Shown: positions 3,415 to 24,759 of the stretch, in pieces | Layout: each line of letters begins with the position of its first letter | Position numbering within the stretch: the stretch's first letter is position 1 | The notes under the pieces: generated by a model | The model's input: the letters and a program-made list of their open reading frames with translations, nothing else | Told to the model about the DNA's origin: nothing | Database searches by the model: none | IMG/VR virus record: IMGVR_UViG_3300007538_000113 | Span: 1 to 30,629 of that record | Reading direction: 5' to 3' (one strand) | DNA from: a virus | Length of the DNA stretch: 30,629 nt | Translations under genes and position numbers: made by a program

Positions 3415-3787
3415 GGATTTACTATTTGCGTTGCTTACATCGCTTCTAATCGCTTCGTGTGCAAGTAAACGATTTACGGAAACGATTACAATTAAGGACA
3501 CTATTATAGTACCCGCAAAGATTCAGCTTGATACTTTGGTTTTATTTAAAGATTCAATCGTAACTATTCATGACACAACGGGGCAGATGACTATAACTAT
3601 TCAAAAATTTAGAGATAAGTATATAAGAGTCCAAGGTATTTGCAAACCTAAAGAAATTATCATTCCTATTACAAAAACAATCACAAAGACAAAGGAAGTC
3701 ATTGTTAAAAACTCTTTTTATAAGTATTCATTATTTTTATTACTTTTGTTTGTCGGTGCTTATGTAGCGTTTAAACGCTTTAATTAA
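3398..3787 (+). CDS. candidate unimolecular spanin (lipoprotein with C-terminal TM)
   Basis: 129 residues. The N-terminus is a lipoprotein signal peptide (hydrophobic residues 8-20, lipobox I18-A-S-C21). The middle is periplasmic and beta/Thr-rich (KDTIIVPAKIQLDTLVLFKD). The C-terminus holds one strong hydrophobic helix (~109-124, YSLFLLLLFVGAYVAF) followed by KRFN. An outer-membrane lipid anchor at one end and an inner-membrane helix at the other is the topology of u-spanins such as T1 gp11, which fuse the two membranes at lysis. It is the last gene before a strong terminator. No sequence similarity to T1 gp11 is claimed; topology and context carry the call. Confidence 0.65.
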   Translation: MMTNYKDLLFALLTSLLIASCASKRFTETITIKDTIIVPAKIQLDTLVLFKDSIVTIHDTTGQMTITIQKFRDKYIRVQGICKPKEIIIPITKTITKTKEVIVKNSFYKYSLFLLLLFVGAYVAFKRFN

Positions 3788-3811
3788 GTTTTTTCATTGT
3801 TGTTTGTTTAG

Positions 3812-3842
3812 AAGGTGGTCATTAATTTGACTGCCTTTTTTT
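3812..3842 (+). terminator. rho-independent terminator after the lysis cassette
   Basis: Stem AAGGTGGTCA (3812-3821) pairs with TGACTGCCTT (3828-3837) across the loop TTAATT, with two G-T pairs, and runs into seven T (3836-3842). It separates the lysis operon from the early promoter directly downstream. Confidence 0.85.
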
Positions 3843-3845
3843 ATT

Positions 3846-3867
3846 TATGACAATTCTATGACAATTC
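3846..3867 (+). repeat. perfect tandem 11-bp repeat upstream of the early promoter
   Basis: TATGACAATTC occurs twice with no gap (3846-3856, 3857-3867). The period is one helical turn, so a protein could bind both copies on one face. The second copy ends 16 bases before the -7 box. The same element with the same spacing precedes the leftward promoter at 24714-24759. Confidence 0.85.
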
Positions 3868-3891
3868 TTTTGTAGATTGACCTTATATTTG
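3868..3891 (+). promoter_or_regulatory. rightward early promoter
   Basis: TATATTTG at 3884-3891 is a perfect Bacteroidota -7 box, 23 bases before the ATG at 3915. A TTTTG at 3868-3872 is too close to act as the normal -33 element, so the tandem repeat directly upstream probably takes that place or binds an activator. It is the only strong promoter seen ahead of the early operon. Confidence 0.75.
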
Positions 3892-3914
3892 TTTCAACAA
3901 CAAAAAGAAATAAT

Positions 3915-4061
3915 ATGAAAAACCTAAACCAACAGCAACCTATTTTTTACAGAAACGAATTAATTTCATTTATTGATTTTGATTCTCAAAGAAATGGCTA
4001 TATTCAAATATTTATTGGAATGGCTTTATTATTTGTTAATATTGATGAACTTTCAAATTAA
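3915..4061 (+). CDS. small early protein of unknown function (48 aa)
   Basis: The first ATG after the early promoter opens a 48-codon frame ending with TAA at 4059-4061. The product begins MKNLNQQQPIFYRNELISF and ends with a hydrophobic stretch (GYIQIFIGMALLFVNI) that might be a short membrane segment. No family is recognised. As the first gene of the early transcript it could be a host take-over peptide. The next gene follows four bases later. Confidence 0.6.
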   Translation: MKNLNQQQPIFYRNELISFIDFDSQRNGYIQIFIGMALLFVNIDELSN

Positions 4062-4065
4062 TATT

Positions 4066-4194
4066 ATGGAATTAACACCACTCGAAAAGTCAAGGCTTCA
4101 ATATATGAAGCTTTATGAAGAACAAATAATCTTTAAATCAAATCAAAACAAACAAACAACTTTTAAAAAACTATTATCATGGATAACAAAGTAA
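4066..4194 (+). CDS. small early protein, 'TPLEKS' type (42 aa)
   Basis: I chose the ATG at 4066, not the longer in-frame start at 3973, because 3973 lies inside the 3915-4061 gene. The 42-residue product starts MELTPLEKSRLQYM. The TP-x-E-x-S opening recurs at 8860 and 9069, and the 18 bases at 4075-4092 match 9072-9089 with one difference. Lys-rich helical tail; function unknown. Confidence 0.6.
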   Translation: MELTPLEKSRLQYMKLYEEQIIFKSNQNKQTTFKKLLSWITK

Positions 4195-4352
4195 AACTAT
4201 TAACTAATCCGCAAGGGATTGACGTACAAACGACAGGAAAAACAGGTATCATTTTAAAACGATGGTTTAAGTTTTCATTGATTGAATTTACCAATGAGTT
4301 TAACGAGCCTGAGGAATGGTATTTTGAGAATAAAGAATTTGTAATTTTATAA
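4179..4352 (+). CDS. small early protein of unknown function (57 aa)
   Basis: 57 codons from the ATG at 4179, overlapping the previous gene by 16 bases and ending four bases before the ERF gene. The product has alternating hydrophobic residues (TGIILKRWFKFSLIEF) and the acidic stretch NEPEEWYFENKEF, suggesting a small beta-rich fold. A leftward frame across the same bases is a shadow. No family recognised. Confidence 0.6.
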   Translation: MDNKVKLLTNPQGIDVQTTGKTGIILKRWFKFSLIEFTNEFNEPEEWYFENKEFVIL

Positions 4353-4355
4353 GAA

Positions 4356-4940
4356 ATGGAAAAACTAATTAAAAAGCTAGTCACAATTCAAAGCGAATTG
4401 AAAGCACCAAAGGGGCAAACTAATAACTTTGGTAAATATAAATACCGTTCATGTGAAGATATACTAGAAGCCGTTAAACCGCATCTATTAAAGCATGGTT
4501 TGTTCTTATCAATCACAGATGAACTTGTAAACATCGGAGATAGGTATTATATCAAAGCTTCGGTAAACATCACAGACGGAATAGACAAATATTTAGTTGA
4601 TGGATTCGCACGTGAAGAAGAAAATAAAAAAGGGATGGATGCTTCGCAAGTCACCGGGGCGTGTTCTAGTTATGCACGTAAATATGCCTTAAATGGAATG
4701 TTTGCGATTGATGACACCAAAGATAGTGACGCAACGAATAACAACGATAAAGAGCCTGTAAAGATTTCAGCAGGTGAAGCCGTGCAATTAAGTAACTTGC
4801 TTAATATAGCGATAGCCGAAACAAACGTGTGCGATAACGTAGATAGTTTAAAAGCAATTTGGGCATCATACCCAATGTTTCACACAAATACAACCTTTAA
4901 AGAATTAATAAATAGTAAAAAACTTGAATTTAATAAATAA
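4356..4940 (+). CDS. ERF-family single-strand annealing recombinase
   Basis: 194 residues with the ERF pattern: an N-terminal helix IQSELKAPKG (12-21) followed by NNFGKYKYRSCEDILEAVKP (23-42), then a beta-rich part (GDRYYIKASVNITDG), then GMDASQVTGACSSYARKYAL (~92-111), where the 'G...SY..+Y.L' core is the family hallmark, and FAIDDTKDSD. ERF proteins coat and anneal ssDNA in phage recombination and replication. The C-terminal third (from ~125) is a separate helical part, possibly for partner binding. It is followed directly by a small protein with an SSB-like acidic end, a plausible functional partner. Confidence 0.88.
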   Translation: MEKLIKKLVTIQSELKAPKGQTNNFGKYKYRSCEDILEAVKPHLLKHGLFLSITDELVNIGDRYYIKASVNITDGIDKYLVDGFAREEENKKGMDASQVTGACSSYARKYALNGMFAIDDTKDSDATNNNDKEPVKISAGEAVQLSNLLNIAIAETNVCDNVDSLKAIWASYPMFHTNTTFKELINSKKLEFNK

Positions 4941-5421: not shown

Positions 5422-5664
5422 ATGACAAACGAAAACAAAAAGACATTATTTGAACGCCTTGAGTCAGATATTAAATATAAACTTGATAGGGTAGAAGAAT
5501 TATACCCAAATAGTATCAATGGTATTTATAAAGAGCTTCATGAAAATTATTATTTCAGAAAATTAACGTATGACTGCATAATTGATTTAGTTTATTATTG
5601 TGAATTAAAAGATTGCAATTCTGGGACTATTAAAAATTTATTTATAGATACTGAAAATATTTAA
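5422..5664 (+). CDS. small protein, paralogue of the leftward 24209-24427 gene
   Basis: 80 residues with the pattern LFERL...LYP...LTY.C...LV.Y..L.D....I.NLF. It aligns without gaps to the 72-residue product encoded leftward at 24209-24427 (27 identities over 66 positions by my count, about 41%), so the two are paralogues in opposite early operons. Helical, acidic, no catalytic motif. Function unknown; duplication in both early arms suggests a dosage or host-interaction role. Confidence 0.7.
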   Translation: MTNENKKTLFERLESDIKYKLDRVEELYPNSINGIYKELHENYYFRKLTYDCIIDLVYYCELKDCNSGTIKNLFIDTENI

Positions 5665-5668
5665 AGAC

Positions 5669-6223
5669 ATGAATCAAGACACATTAAAATTATGTTACTA
5701 CGCTTCCGAATTATATGAATCTAAGAAGCTAAGTTCAAACGATATTTACCAATTATTAACGACTACTAACAGACGTATTGGTGAAGTTACAAAAGCAAGG
5801 CAACTAGTTTCTTATTTTTTGTATAACCATTACAAAATGACTATGGTGCAAATAGCAAAAGAATTTAAATTGCAAAATCATAACTCAATAATTTATCAGA
5901 TTGACAAGGTATTTTACAGCCTTCGTACCGACAAAAGAATGAAATACAGGCATGACTTCATGCTCGATATAATTAATGGCGTACAGCGCACAATAATGCG
6001 CGACAGACCTATTTCAAAAGGTATCTTATCAGAAGATGACAAAGATTTTATAAAAACAAACTTATCAAATGATTTCTCGGTAAGTTATTACGCAGATATT
6101 TTAAACAAAACTAAAGGAGCGGTTAAATTTTATCTTTATAGCTTAAATAAAGAAACGCTAAACGCAACGAGAAAACCTCAAGTAAAATTGTCTAGATTTG
6201 TAATTCAAAAAATCGACTATTAA
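5669..6223 (+). CDS. DnaA domain IV-like DNA-binding protein
   Basis: 184 residues. Residues ~42-95 resemble the C-terminal DNA-binding domain of DnaA: KARQLVSYFLYNHYKMTM, then QIAKEFKLQNHNSIIYQIDK with the N-H-N-S turn at 70-73 (DnaA has D-H-S-T). The first part is helical. Residues ~120-160 hold a second helix-turn-helix-like stretch (VSYYADILNKTKGAVKFYL). There is no AAA+ ATPase, so it cannot act as a full initiator; it may mark the phage origin or mimic DnaA. It lies just upstream of the replication protein and helicase, overlapping nothing and spaced by one base from the next ATG. Confidence 0.65.
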   Translation: MNQDTLKLCYYASELYESKKLSSNDIYQLLTTTNRRIGEVTKARQLVSYFLYNHYKMTMVQIAKEFKLQNHNSIIYQIDKVFYSLRTDKRMKYRHDFMLDIINGVQRTIMRDRPISKGILSEDDKDFIKTNLSNDFSVSYYADILNKTKGAVKFYLYSLNKETLNATRKPQVKLSRFVIQKIDY

Positions 6224-9694: not shown

Positions 9695-10077
9695 AAAACA
9701 AAGAAGATTTAATTCAGTTAAGCGTTATTAATTATTTAAAAATGCAATATCCACAAGTCAGATTTATGGCTAATTATCTTTCAGGTGCAAGGCTTCCGAT
9801 TTATTTAGCGCGTAAAGCAAAGAAGTTAGGTCAAGCAGGGCAAGGGACACCAGACTTATTTATATTTCATAATAACGGTAAGTACTCAATGCTAGTTTTA
9901 GAGTTAAAAGTCGAAAGTCCTTTTAAGCTGAATGGTATGTTGAAAACTAATGAGCATTTAACTAAACAAAAGAATTATCTTGACTACCTAAATAGAGAGG
10001 GTGCTTTCGCTTCGTTTGGCGTTGGTGTAACAAATACAATAGAATTGATTGATAAGTATATGCACAATGAACTATAA
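9691..10077 (+). CDS. VRR-NUC domain nuclease
   Basis: 128 residues matching the VRR-NUC domain. LSGARLPIYLARKAKKLG (~30-47) leads to GQGTPDLFIF (~50-59, catalytic Asp), LVLELKVES (E-x-K, ~70-78), HLTKQKNYLDYL (Gln of the helix) and EGAFASFGVG at the end. Stand-alone VRR-NUC proteins in phages are structure-specific endonucleases. It lies in the replication/recombination part of the early operon, overlapping the upstream nuclease gene by four bases and the downstream sigma-like gene by 11 bases. Confidence 0.85.
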   Translation: MKNKEDLIQLSVINYLKMQYPQVRFMANYLSGARLPIYLARKAKKLGQAGQGTPDLFIFHNNGKYSMLVLELKVESPFKLNGMLKTNEHLTKQKNYLDYLNREGAFASFGVGVTNTIELIDKYMHNEL

Positions 10078-10618
10078 TAGAGTTATAAGCGATTATTACA
10101 CGCAAAAGGATATAATAACATTCTTTAAAAACATCGCTGGTGAATGGTGGGAAGAACTTCGTCAAGATGTATTTTTAACGATTTGCGAGTACGACCAGAC
10201 GAAAATAATTGATATGCACGAAAGAAAGTGCTTAAAATTCTTTATTGTTCGCATAGGATTAAATCAATTCAGGTCTAAAAACTCAAAGTTTTATTATCAG
10301 AATTTCAAGAATCAAAGGATAAGTGATAATATTATTGACGACGAACTGATTGAAAATAGCGACCATATATTATTCGCAAATCATTTGTTTGAATTACAAG
10401 ACGATAACGCTTATGATAAGATAGAAACTAGGATTCAAGCAGTCGAAAAGAGTATATCAGAACTTCGCTTCTTTGAATGTGAAGTCTTAAAGTTATATTT
10501 ACAACTAGGTACGTATAAGAATGTGAGTTTAAAGACTGGCATTCCAATACGAACAATCGCAAACGGAGTAAAGAATGCTATAAATAATGTTAAATTAAAT
10601 GTTAAAGAATATGAATGA
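10067..10618 (+). CDS. sigma-70 family-like RNA polymerase sigma factor
   Basis: I take the ATG at 10067 (183 residues); an in-frame ATG at 10049 lies deeper in the nuclease gene. The N-terminal half has the sigma region 2 look: ELRQDVFLTICEYDQTKI, then KFFIVRIGLNQFRSKNSKFY. The C-terminal ~45 residues look like region 4: ELRFFECEVLKLYLQLGTYKNVSLKTGI with a helix-turn-helix ending RTIANGVKNAINNVK. Proteins of this size and position in Bacteroidota phages are often annotated as sigma factors and could switch host polymerase to late genes. Similarity is by pattern; a plain HTH regulator is the alternative. Confidence 0.6.
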   Translation: MNYNRVISDYYTQKDIITFFKNIAGEWWEELRQDVFLTICEYDQTKIIDMHERKCLKFFIVRIGLNQFRSKNSKFYYQNFKNQRISDNIIDDELIENSDHILFANHLFELQDDNAYDKIETRIQAVEKSISELRFFECEVLKLYLQLGTYKNVSLKTGIPIRTIANGVKNAINNVKLNVKEYE

Positions 10619-11555: not shown

Positions 11556-12088
11556 TTGAACTTAAAATATCGGATTTAATCCCAGACGATAAAAATTATA
11601 ACAAAGGTACTGAATTTGGTAATTCATTAATTGAAAAATCATTAAGGAAGTTCGGGGCGGGTCGTTCAATCTTGTTAGATAAAAACAATCGAATCATAGC
11701 AGGTAACAAAACTATTGAAAACGCAAACGCTATTGGCTTAGAAGATATTATTATTGTTGAAACGACAGGCAATCAAATCGTAGCGGTCAAAAGATTAGAT
11801 ATTGATTTGGATTCTAAAATTGGTCGAGAATTAGCCTTTGCAGATAATGCTTCAGCAAAAGCAAATATCGATTGGGACATGGATAATGTCTATGAAGATT
11901 GGACTAAACAGGAAGCTTTAAATTGGGGTGTTAGCGAATCAAAAGAAGATATGCAAACGGTAGAGGAAGCTCAAGAAGAAAACTTCATTAAGATTTCAAT
12001 CGAAACAACGAATAACGCTTTCATTGAAATGAATGAAAAGCTTCAAAACTTGTGTGACGAATACAGTGCGATAATGAAAGTCAAATGA
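11552..12088 (+). CDS. ParB/sulfiredoxin-like (ParB N-terminal) domain protein
   Basis: 178 residues. It opens with ELKISDLIPDDKNYNKG (3-19), then SLIEKSLRKFGAGRSILLDK (~25-44) and NRIIAGNKTIENANAIG (~46-62), the typical ParB N-terminal domain order (IP..N...........F....ILVD..N.IIAGN.......LG). Residues 100-178 are acidic and helical. In phages this domain is usually linked to DNA methyltransferases or terminase regions; here it stands alone just before the HNH and terminase genes. A nuclease/CTPase role or DNA-partition role is not resolved by sequence. Confidence 0.75.
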   Translation: MIELKISDLIPDDKNYNKGTEFGNSLIEKSLRKFGAGRSILLDKNNRIIAGNKTIENANAIGLEDIIIVETTGNQIVAVKRLDIDLDSKIGRELAFADNASAKANIDWDMDNVYEDWTKQEALNWGVSESKEDMQTVEEAQEENFIKISIETTNNAFIEMNEKLQNLCDEYSAIMKVK

Positions 12089-14413: not shown

Positions 14414-14455
14414 CTATTGTGCATTGTTTTGCACTTTTATTGTGCAGATTTATTG

Positions 14456-14463
14456 TATATTTG
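14456..14463 (+). promoter_or_regulatory. second promoter -7 box before the virion operon
   Basis: TATATTTG lies four bases before the ATG at 14468. That distance would give an almost leaderless mRNA for the 14468 gene; TTTTG at 14427-14431 is slightly far for a -33 element. Confidence 0.4.
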
Positions 14464-14467
14464 AATT

Positions 14468-14677
14468 ATGAAAGATAAAGCTTTTGAGTTTTTCGATTCA
14501 ATGCTAGGCGGTCAGATAATAGCTATAAAGGAAATAGCTAAGAATGACCCCGAAGCATTTAAACAATATCTAAAGGACTATATCGATAGCGGTGGTTTGA
14601 TTACCGTATCACCAGACTGGCGAAAGTTCAGAAAAGATAATGACCCTAATGACTTTAAAGATTTGCCACAACGGTAA
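14468..14677 (+). CDS. small protein of unknown function (69 aa)
   Basis: 69 residues, helical N-terminal half (FEFFDSMLGGQIIAIKEIA) then PEAFKQYLKDYIDSGG and a polar end with SPDWRKFRKDNDPND. It is the first gene after the control region and 35 bases ahead of the tail chaperone. No family recognised; position suggests a virion-assembly or regulatory role. Confidence 0.6.
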   Translation: MKDKAFEFFDSMLGGQIIAIKEIAKNDPEAFKQYLKDYIDSGGLITVSPDWRKFRKDNDPNDFKDLPQR

Positions 14678-23925: not shown

Positions 23926-23956
23926 GGGTGGGGCTTATAAACCCCATCCACTTTTT
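23926..23956 (+). terminator. terminator between convergent gene sets
   Basis: GGGTGGGG (23926-23933) pairs with CCCCATCC (23942-23949) across CTTATAAA with one G-T pair, followed by ACTTTTT. It stops the rightward transcript; it overlaps the 3' end of the leftward gene at 23935, so it may serve both directions. Confidence 0.8.
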
Positions 23957-24216
23957 ATTGACATACCACCTTCACCGAATGATGACTTCGACCCACTAGA
24001 GCGATTGTCGTACGTTTTAAGCAAGTCCAATAAAAAAGGGTGTTCTTCTTCACTTAACAAATTATCTTCAAGGTAGTCGGCTATATCGCCACCAATCCAT
24101 CCAAAACTTTTGCCAGTCTTTAAAGCGTGTAAAGTTTTAGTTTTCATTTCGCTTTCTGGTAGTGCATAAAATTTATCTAAATAAACCTTATCCATTTTGT
24201 CTATTAGCTTAGTCAT
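23935..24216 (-). CDS. leftward small protein of unknown function (93 aa)
   Basis: The ATG at 24216 overlaps the stop of the upstream leftward gene and is preferred to a TTG two codons earlier. 93 residues: helical start (MTKLIDKMDKVYLDKFYALP), then ALKTGKSFGWIGGDIADYLE, SEEEHPFLLDLLKTYD and a Gly/Ser-rich end. No family recognised. It is the last gene of the leftward operon. Confidence 0.65.
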   Translation of the reverse strand: MTKLIDKMDKVYLDKFYALPESEMKTKTLHALKTGKSFGWIGGDIADYLEDNLLSEEEHPFLLDLLKTYDNRSSGSKSSFGEGGMSIKSGWGL

Positions 24217-24427
24217 TATCAAATAAGTTTTCTATTGCACAAGGTGAATAATCGTAAAGGTCTAAATAACTTACCAAAGTAAATACGCAAGAATAAGTTA
24301 AGTCTGCCCAAAAAGTATTTAATTCTAGTTCCAAAAATAAGTTTGGAATTGTCGCTGGGTATAAAGTTTGTGCTTCTTTAAGCTTTTCGATATGCTCTGG
24401 TTTTAGTCTTTCAAATAGATTTCTCAT
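24209..24427 (-). CDS. leftward paralogue of the 5422-5664 gene
   Basis: 72 residues: RNLFERLKPEHIEKLKEAQ, LYP, FWADLTYSCVFTLVSYLDLY and IENLF. It aligns gap-free with the 80-residue product at 5422-5664 (about 41% identity by my count). It overlaps the TM peptide gene upstream by 17 bases and the next gene by eight. Function unknown. Confidence 0.7.
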   Translation of the reverse strand: MRNLFERLKPEHIEKLKEAQTLYPATIPNLFLELELNTFWADLTYSCVFTLVSYLDLYDYSPCAIENLFDND

Positions 24428-24530
24428 TGTCGTGTTTTTTAAGTGCTTTCATAAAATAGTGAACTGCGGTTGCGAACAAAAGTACAAATAAAATAGGTAC
24501 TGCGCAAAAAATAAAAGCTAAAATTTCCAT
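24411..24530 (-). CDS. leftward 39-residue single-TM peptide
   Basis: ATG at 24530 to TGA at 24411. MEILAFIFCAVPILFVLLFA is a membrane helix, followed by a basic tail (MKALKKHDNEKS). It lies one base downstream of the 24532 gene and overlaps the next by 17 bases. Such small inner-membrane peptides could take part in superinfection exclusion, but this is only a suggestion. Confidence 0.6.
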   Translation of the reverse strand: MEILAFIFCAVPILFVLLFATAVHYFMKALKKHDNEKSI

Positions 24531-24531
24531 A

Positions 24532-24687
24532 TTAATAAATTCTAAAGTTAGTGACATCGTTATCGCAAAGGTTCGCTAAAATTTGTTTAGCAAAAGATTT
24601 GACTTCTTTTAAATTATTAAATTGAACTTTTTTAATTATAAGGTCATTATAATCATTGTCCATAAATGCGATTGTGTAATTTTTCAT
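24532..24687 (-). CDS. leftward first gene, small protein of unknown function (51 aa)
   Basis: ATG at 24687, 27 bases after the leftward -7 box, to TAA at 24532. The 51-residue product (MKNYTIAFMDNDYNDLIIKK, then a helical middle ending with QILANLCDNDVTNF) has a beta-strand-like start and a helix; no family recognised. As the first gene of the leftward early transcript it may be a host-interaction protein. Confidence 0.6.
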   Translation of the reverse strand: MKNYTIAFMDNDYNDLIIKKVQFNNLKEVKSFAKQILANLCDNDVTNFRIY

Positions 24688-24713: not shown

Positions 24714-24759
24714 CAAATGTAAAAGTAATATTGTATTTAATTGTCATAGAAATGCCATA
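24714..24759 (-). promoter_or_regulatory. leftward early promoter with 11-bp tandem element
   Basis: Read leftward: TATGGCATTTC (24759-24749), TATGACAATTA (24748-24738), then TACATTTG (24721-24714), a perfect -7 box. From the end of TATGACAATT to the -7 box there are 17 bases, the same as in the rightward early promoter. Confidence 0.75.

Follow-up and report, generated by a model that had tools for sequence, protein, structure and literature searches.

Two promoters of a tailed phage share a tandem TGACA operator that may be bound by a heme-linked OmpR-family regulator of Bacteroidota hosts

The window analyzed here was a whole IMG/VR virus record of 30,629 bases, which was recognized as a tailed phage by its genes (an Erf annealing protein, a DnaB-like helicase, a DNA methyltransferase, a terminase, and a tape measure protein). 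A near-identity search of positions 3600-4200 against public phages returned no match, and the window terminase had only distant matches among public phages (33% identity at best among the matches listed). The terminase was also compared with 395 Bacteroidota genomes at E<=1e-60 without a match, and for this reason no host is named. Two small ORFs, one in each arm (5422-5664, plus strand, and 24209-24427, minus strand), resemble paralogs (...LFERL...) and belong to one protein cluster, and the protein of the ORF at 5669-6223 (+) scored 29.3 bits against the DnaA C-terminal domain, just short of the 31.5 bits required by Pfam. The features on which the analysis was centered are collected in Table 1.

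Table 1. Promoter elements of the window and the genes and gap associated with them
Feature	Position	Strand	Remarks
Rightward tandem operator, TATGACAATTC-TATGACAATT	3846..3866	+	TGACA at 3848-3852 and 3859-3863, 11-bp period
Rightward -7 box, TATATTTG	3884-3891	+	17 bp downstream of operator, 20 bp downstream of second TGACA
First ORF behind rightward promoter, 48 aa, MKNLNQQQ..	3915..4061	+	Several relatives have other small ORFs here
Erf-type ssDNA annealing protein	4356..4940	+	Downstream of rightward promoter
Gap where relatives (e.g. L076) hold operator, -7 box, leader, and small ORF	14455..14468	+	Between terminase and 69-aa gene
Leftward run of small ORFs (51, 48 or 39, 72, and about 93 aa)	23935..24687	-	Flanked by plus-strand ORFs
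Leftward -7 box, TACATTTG	24714..24721	-	17 bp downstream of operator
Leftward tandem operator, TATGGCATTTC-TATGACAATT	24739..24759	-	Distal TGACA copy one base off

The window has exactly two occurrences of the arrangement TATGACAATT-N17-TAnnTTTG, one at 3857-3891 (+) and the other at 24748-24714 (-), with an 11-bp copy upstream of each. Written out, the rightward site (3846-3891) is TATGACAATTC-TATGACAATT-N17-TATATTTG and the leftward site (24759-24714) is TATGGCATTTC-TATGACAATT-N17-TACATTTG; TATGACAATT is present at 3846-3855 and again at 3857-3866 (+), and the minus strand has TATGGCATTT at 24759-24750 followed by TATGACAATT at 24748-24739. The initial annotation had given the bases and coordinates of both promoters, the N17 spacing, and the upstream copies correctly, and its claim that the -33 TTG is missing was confirmed, since no TTG was found 17-22 bp upstream of the -7 box at either promoter. 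The TAnnTTTG box of the primary sigma factor lies close upstream of a gene start in both cases, the ORFs beginning 23 and 26 bp past the box, and both variable positions are free of G in either box. What is conserved is a TGACA pair with an 11-bp period, placed 20 bp upstream of the -7 box, so that the core element is TGACA-N6-TGACA-N20-TAnnTTTG and TATGACAATT is the version of this phage group. Dimers of OmpR-family proteins usually bind an 11-bp direct repeat, and a direct repeat with a period of about 11 bp, as expected of promoters run by such response regulators, is present both in the window and at the viral sites described next.

The full 35-mer has two perfect matches in the window, and five matches were obtained with up to three mismatches against 1.59 expected, a count reached in one of 100 shuffles. 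The 10-mer TATGACAATT alone is ordinary in the window at one mismatch (six found, 5.58 expected), and the weight therefore rests on the tandem, the spacing, and the conservation. IMG/VR viral contigs were scanned using a tandem-only pattern that contained no -7 box, which selected 56 sites in 54 stretches; TAnnTTTG was found at exactly N17 in 33 of the 56 and elsewhere within 60 bp in 0 of the 56, the remaining 23 having no TAnnTTTG in reach. The motif and its spacing, which the initial annotation had suggested seeking in related phages, are present there. When viral contigs were searched with the core element, 79 stretches with 82 sites were obtained, and 64 of these sites were noncoding, as against 11 noncoding sites out of 83 for a control with identical bases but repeats 12 bp apart; noncoding was called by a simple ORF rule, and related contigs inflate any p-value that might be attached to this difference. 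In certain relatives, a single contig bears two or three of these sites, and the 21-mer at 3846..3866 recurs both in viral relatives and in bacterial genomes. The shared two-promoter architecture is real and well above chance. Several sites come from closely related contigs, which is what chance, or plain descent of one phage promoter without any special operator, would have in its favor; but the 82 core sites and the two window sites form 36 spacer clusters (coding sites counted in), the same spacing recurs at bacterial genes of heme synthesis that encode glutamyl-tRNA reductase (hemA; see below), and the noncoding excess over the control is large enough that such an origin is hardly credible.

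Some viral contigs add detail to this picture. The relative L078 has a further promoter copy in the form of a second element (11780-11823, plus strand), whose GACCTTATATTTG end it shares with the rightward promoter. In L194, L204, and L206, the tandem lies downstream of AATAATACTT and is followed by a TTAA-rich stretch without TAnnTTTG, which suggests another promoter type or regulator.

A phage moron is a small gene with its own promoter that is inserted between conserved genes and differs among relatives. The terminase-side cassette is missing from the window, the flanks of which align closely with those of L076, and a promoter with its small gene is therefore present in L076 and absent from the window (14455-14468) between conserved neighbors. 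Among 13 relative loci (the cut locus L069 excluded), the first gene behind the rightward promoter was of seven kinds, and six kinds were counted in nine loci behind the post-terminase site; the leftward gene run was steadier, the first ORF being missing in three of the eight loci compared. A relative of the window gene at 14468-14677 sits behind the promoter and before Erf in L193 and L514, from which it appears that genes have moved between sites. These small promoter-bearing genes are like phage morons in lying between conserved genes and in varying among relatives, and unlike them in that the cassettes at separate places have one operator-promoter design in common; to judge from the gene arrangements, the behavior is moron-like with a common operator. 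Because a further copy lies downstream of the terminase and the first gene often varies by phage, accessory-gene (moron-like) promoter would be as good a name as 'early' promoter.

Bacterial genomes were scanned using the tandem alone, and at least 119 stretches were obtained from the collection. No exact TAnnTTTG at 17 bp was present among the bacterial tandem matches listed. An element confined to phages, as first suggested by this missing exact N17 box, was rejected after a search with one mismatch showed a Bacteroidota peak at N17: among the matches listed, the boxes with at most one mismatch at 44 Bacteroidota tandem sites peaked at N17 and N37 (five each, the next value being two), and the other 78 sites had two at N17 and peaks at 52 and 32. 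Three of the five N37 sites (L232, L234, and L259) look by eye like one gene in related genomes. The neighboring genes were read at 18 loci chosen from the 44 listed Bacteroidota sites, and hemA was next to the tandem in five of them (L245, L261, L301, L238, and L322; assigned by eye, L301 by NCBIfam), two of which (L238 and L322) lack a near -7 box at the N17 spacing. A gene read by eye as HmuY-like, accompanied by a TonB-type gene, is contained in L307 and lies beside L290; when 130 residues of the L307 protein were compared with family models, nothing was matched. The neighbor in L299 is TonB-related in appearance, and near L253 a cytochrome-oxidase-like gene is encoded on the other strand. 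Against a heme reading, many Bacteroidota tandem sites precede genes without a visible heme link, and most of the other loci read are unclear.

The complete element was then sought with at most two mismatches. Four sites were found in three of 296 Bacteroidota genomes, where a reversed control gave none in the genomes listed, and the element was also present in four of 201 genomes of one family. With an exact -7 box, the complete element (at most two mismatches) is found at hemA in L387 and at a DUF4856 gene (Pfam) in L386, where an imelysin-like gene (by eye) follows, and G152, a genome that bears the regulator described below, has two complete elements (at most two mismatches) in prophage-like surroundings. 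The rarity of the complete element among bacterial genomes counts against the reading in which a host regulator binds it. Tandems at one mismatch or less are numerous in G007-G009 (e.g. L209, L211, L218, L223, L225, and L303), with seven to ten per genome and none in the reversed control; part of them precede TonB-like genes and many lie elsewhere. A Pho-box-like arrangement of three TATGACATT-like repeats with an 11-bp period is present, in similar contexts, at loci from Methylophilaceae and other Betaproteobacteria (L215, L239, L243, L244, L257, and L262).

Five element-carrying genomes were screened for OmpR-family regulators, and one type stood out. Its gene is followed in G152 (L413) by those for a TPR-like protein and hemE (the latter by NCBIfam) and preceded by a kinase gene, and a 16/19 match to the tandem lies upstream of it in G007 and G008 (L401 and L402). 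The distribution of the regulator was surveyed in a sample of 61 Bacteroidota genomes, in which it was called at 52% identity or above (the next match being at 48%); it was present in 11 of the 61, ten of which have hemA. The pattern T[GT]AC[AG]-N6-T[GT]AC[AG] was found upstream of hemA in nine of these ten and in none of the 39 regulator-less genomes read (41 genomes have hemA without the regulator; G001 and G077, both with hemA, were left out). An operator at host genes thus co-occurs with the regulator gene, with a Fisher p of about 5e-9 when kinship is ignored, related genomes not being independent and both the relaxed pattern for hemA and the 52% identity limit having been fixed after inspection of the data. 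Seven of the nine hemA tandems are strict TGACA-N6-TGACA, and the hemA repeats of regulator-bearing genomes often depart from TATGACA (TTACA, TGACAG). Six of the nine have their -7 box at a distance of 20 bp, exact in G075, G113, and G109 (the last upstream region read by eye) and with one mismatch in G117, G089, and G079, and in the other three (G105, G090, and G080) it is at 30-31 bp, one helical turn more. Exact -7 boxes also accompany the hemA tandems of four further element-carrying genomes (G152, G440, G497, and G503), at 20, 20, 20, and 21 bp, respectively. hemA may not be the operon head in every genome. hemE is adjacent to the regulator gene or one gene off in five of the 11 genomes (L449, L455, L456, L458, and L459; by eye); within the stretch examined it was not found near the regulator in the other six, which speaks against the heme link. 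One genome, G074, has the regulator beside hemE yet no hemA tandem, a case that tells against regulation by the host protein.

Compared with the NCBIfam equivalogs, the regulator scored 179.6 of 370 bits for RprY and 178.9 of 270 bits for Bacteroidota PhoB, below the cut-off in both cases, and it was under the cut-off of each of the best 25 of 103 matching NCBIfam models. These scores bear on the alternative that the tandem is bound by Bacteroidota PhoB, the regulator of phosphate starvation. The reversed tandem is Pho-box-like, with TGTCAT repeats at 11 bp, its geometry and half-site resemble those of the Pho box, and many of the non-Bacteroidota tandem matches listed look like multi-copy Pho boxes. 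Binding by PhoB is nevertheless quite improbable, given that the regulator is below the cut-offs for PhoB and RprY, that no pst or pho gene was recognized in the 18 neighborhoods read, and that the hemA tandem tracks one regulator although all five genomes searched have several OmpR-family genes. A literature search by title and abstract opening, with subscription journals mostly outside its scope, gave no description of the motif or of a hemE-linked regulator.

The hemA tandem is not universal in Bacteroidota, because it was absent from all 30 of the upstream regions taken from Flavobacterium, a genus with hemA in each of the 61 genomes searched. Flavobacterium was accordingly rejected as the home of the regulon; the regulator had no match at E<=1e-50 in G001 and G073, the two members of the 61-genome sample known to be of this genus. 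Many of the Flavobacterium hemA upstream regions (e.g. L356-L385) carry a different element with AGCG cores, such as CAGCGATAcaaaaagt..AGCGTTG (by eye), and the opposite strand of L385 carries an AraC-like gene (by eye).

The initial annotation had suggested footprinting with the DnaA-like and sigma-like proteins of the phage, as candidate binders. The window does encode a DnaA_C-type protein (5669-6223) and a weakly sigma-like one (10049-10618), and in L388, L389, L492, L493, L074, and L521 mutually related, divergent ORFs of 73-86 aa lie 27-48 bp from the tandem on its upstream side. A phage-encoded DNA-binding protein might thus bind the tandem as repressor or activator, in which case the bacterial likeness would be convergence on a PhoB-like repeat; we regard this as unlikely, since a phage protein leaves the same geometry at bacterial hemA unexplained. 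Moreover, a tblastn search of five of the small divergent proteins against the window and selected window-type loci found none, with only L521 and L074 matched, and the two proteins that were tested had no Pfam hit, their HTH/DNA-binding character having been read by eye. In a prophage-like subgroup, the small divergent protein could be the actual binder. These 73-86 aa proteins are a possible regulator family of Bacteroidota prophages. For the window promoters, a host protein is the better candidate, because an element with the same spacing precedes hemA in many Bacteroidota and co-occurs with a host OmpR-family regulator, and the proposal of a DnaA-like or sigma-like phage binder is unsupported. 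The broader claim of one regulon with two arms, in which the element replaces the -33 box, held with respect to real-looking promoters, a common operator, and its -33 position, and did not hold with respect to the identity of the binder.

With moderate confidence, we propose that the two promoters belong to one phage regulon that is run by a heme-linked OmpR-family regulator of the host acting as an activator, the operator replacing the -33 box. Each phage promoter would combine a host-type -7 box (TAnnTTTG) with a TGACA-N6-TGACA operator located 20 bp upstream instead of a -33 box. The operator would be bound by a response regulator of the host from the OmpR family, the gene of which is near hemE in part of Bacteroidota and which would normally drive heme-related promoters of like design, hemA foremost. 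A head-to-tail dimer of this protein would contact RNA polymerase carrying the primary sigma factor and compensate for the lost -33 contact, and no phage activator would therefore be needed for the host regulator to turn on the phage genes. In the phage group, interchangeable small genes would be placed behind this module. Binding by the regulator, activation rather than repression, the heme or iron signal, and the host are all points that we infer. The phage promoter may be stronger than the host hemA version, because its -7 box is perfect and that of several host hemA promoters is one base off.

The opposite sign of control, in which the host regulator represses and keeps the phage genes silent until this control is lifted, is very unlikely. 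Operator position alone gives no sign of regulation, and the heme-linked HaeR of Porphyromonas gingivalis is reported, in the available text of PMC3764172, as both activator and repressor. The -33 box is missing from the promoters, however, and the operators stand at 20 bp, at 30-31 bp, and about two turns further (N37) from the -7 box, in steps of about one helical turn, so that those located one or two turns further upstream would also fit contact with polymerase.

Because both outward promoters have the paired operator of the hemA promoter of many Bacteroidota, at an equal distance from the start site, the phage probably runs these genes through the heme-linked two-component regulator of the host. 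A wider proposal, to which we give somewhat less than an even chance, is that phages of many Bacteroidota took over the host promoter of hemA to serve as a portable switch. Both accessory and early genes would then be read only when the heme-linked regulator is active, the infection would therefore sense the heme or iron state of the host, and hypervariable small genes would move between sites behind the common operator. If true, a transcription switch of Bacteroidota phages would be predictable from sequence with its host regulator named, an operator would be defined for a response regulator that is under the cut-off of the best 25 of 103 NCBIfam models, and TGACA-N6-TGACA-N20-TAnnTTTG would serve as a sequence handle for finding phage accessory-gene promoters. 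Counter-defense genes are often among the accessory genes of phages.

CtrA belongs to the OmpR family. In CtrA-controlled phages of Alphaproteobacteria, sites of this host response regulator are located in phage promoters and arose in several phage lineages, and binding was demonstrated (PMC9437464, available portion). The window phage is like these phages in having promoters with sites, here putative, of a host response regulator; as far as the same portion goes, it differs in that CtrA is a cell-cycle regulator whereas the candidate here is linked to heme genes and belongs to Bacteroidota, and in that each promoter has a single tandem, fixed in its distance and standing at the -33 position. 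Cyanophage genes are under the control of the host PhoBR system in phosphate stress, as supported by gel shifts (PMC10976474, in the part available), which is likewise the use of a host two-component regulator by a phage (here a candidate one); unlike the genes described in that part, those headed by the window promoters are small and of unknown function, and no phosphate link is seen. The closest likeness in heme control, drawn by description and not by sequence, is to HaeSR of P. gingivalis, a heme-linked Bacteroidota system whose response regulator binds upstream of its own gene as well as of heme-uptake genes, and for which no HaeR DNA motif was found in the available text (PMC3764172). 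The primary-sigma promoter of Bacteroidota, given as TTTG / TANNTTTG in the accessible part of PMC6847099, is matched by the -7 boxes of the window, including the lack of G at the variable positions, and is departed from where the 11-bp direct repeat replaces the -33 TTTG. Phages that use OmpR-family regulators of their hosts are already known, as the available portions of these sources indicate for CtrA and PhoB; the apparent novelty lies in the regulator, in the fixed architecture resembling that of hemA, and in the common operator over exchangeable genes.
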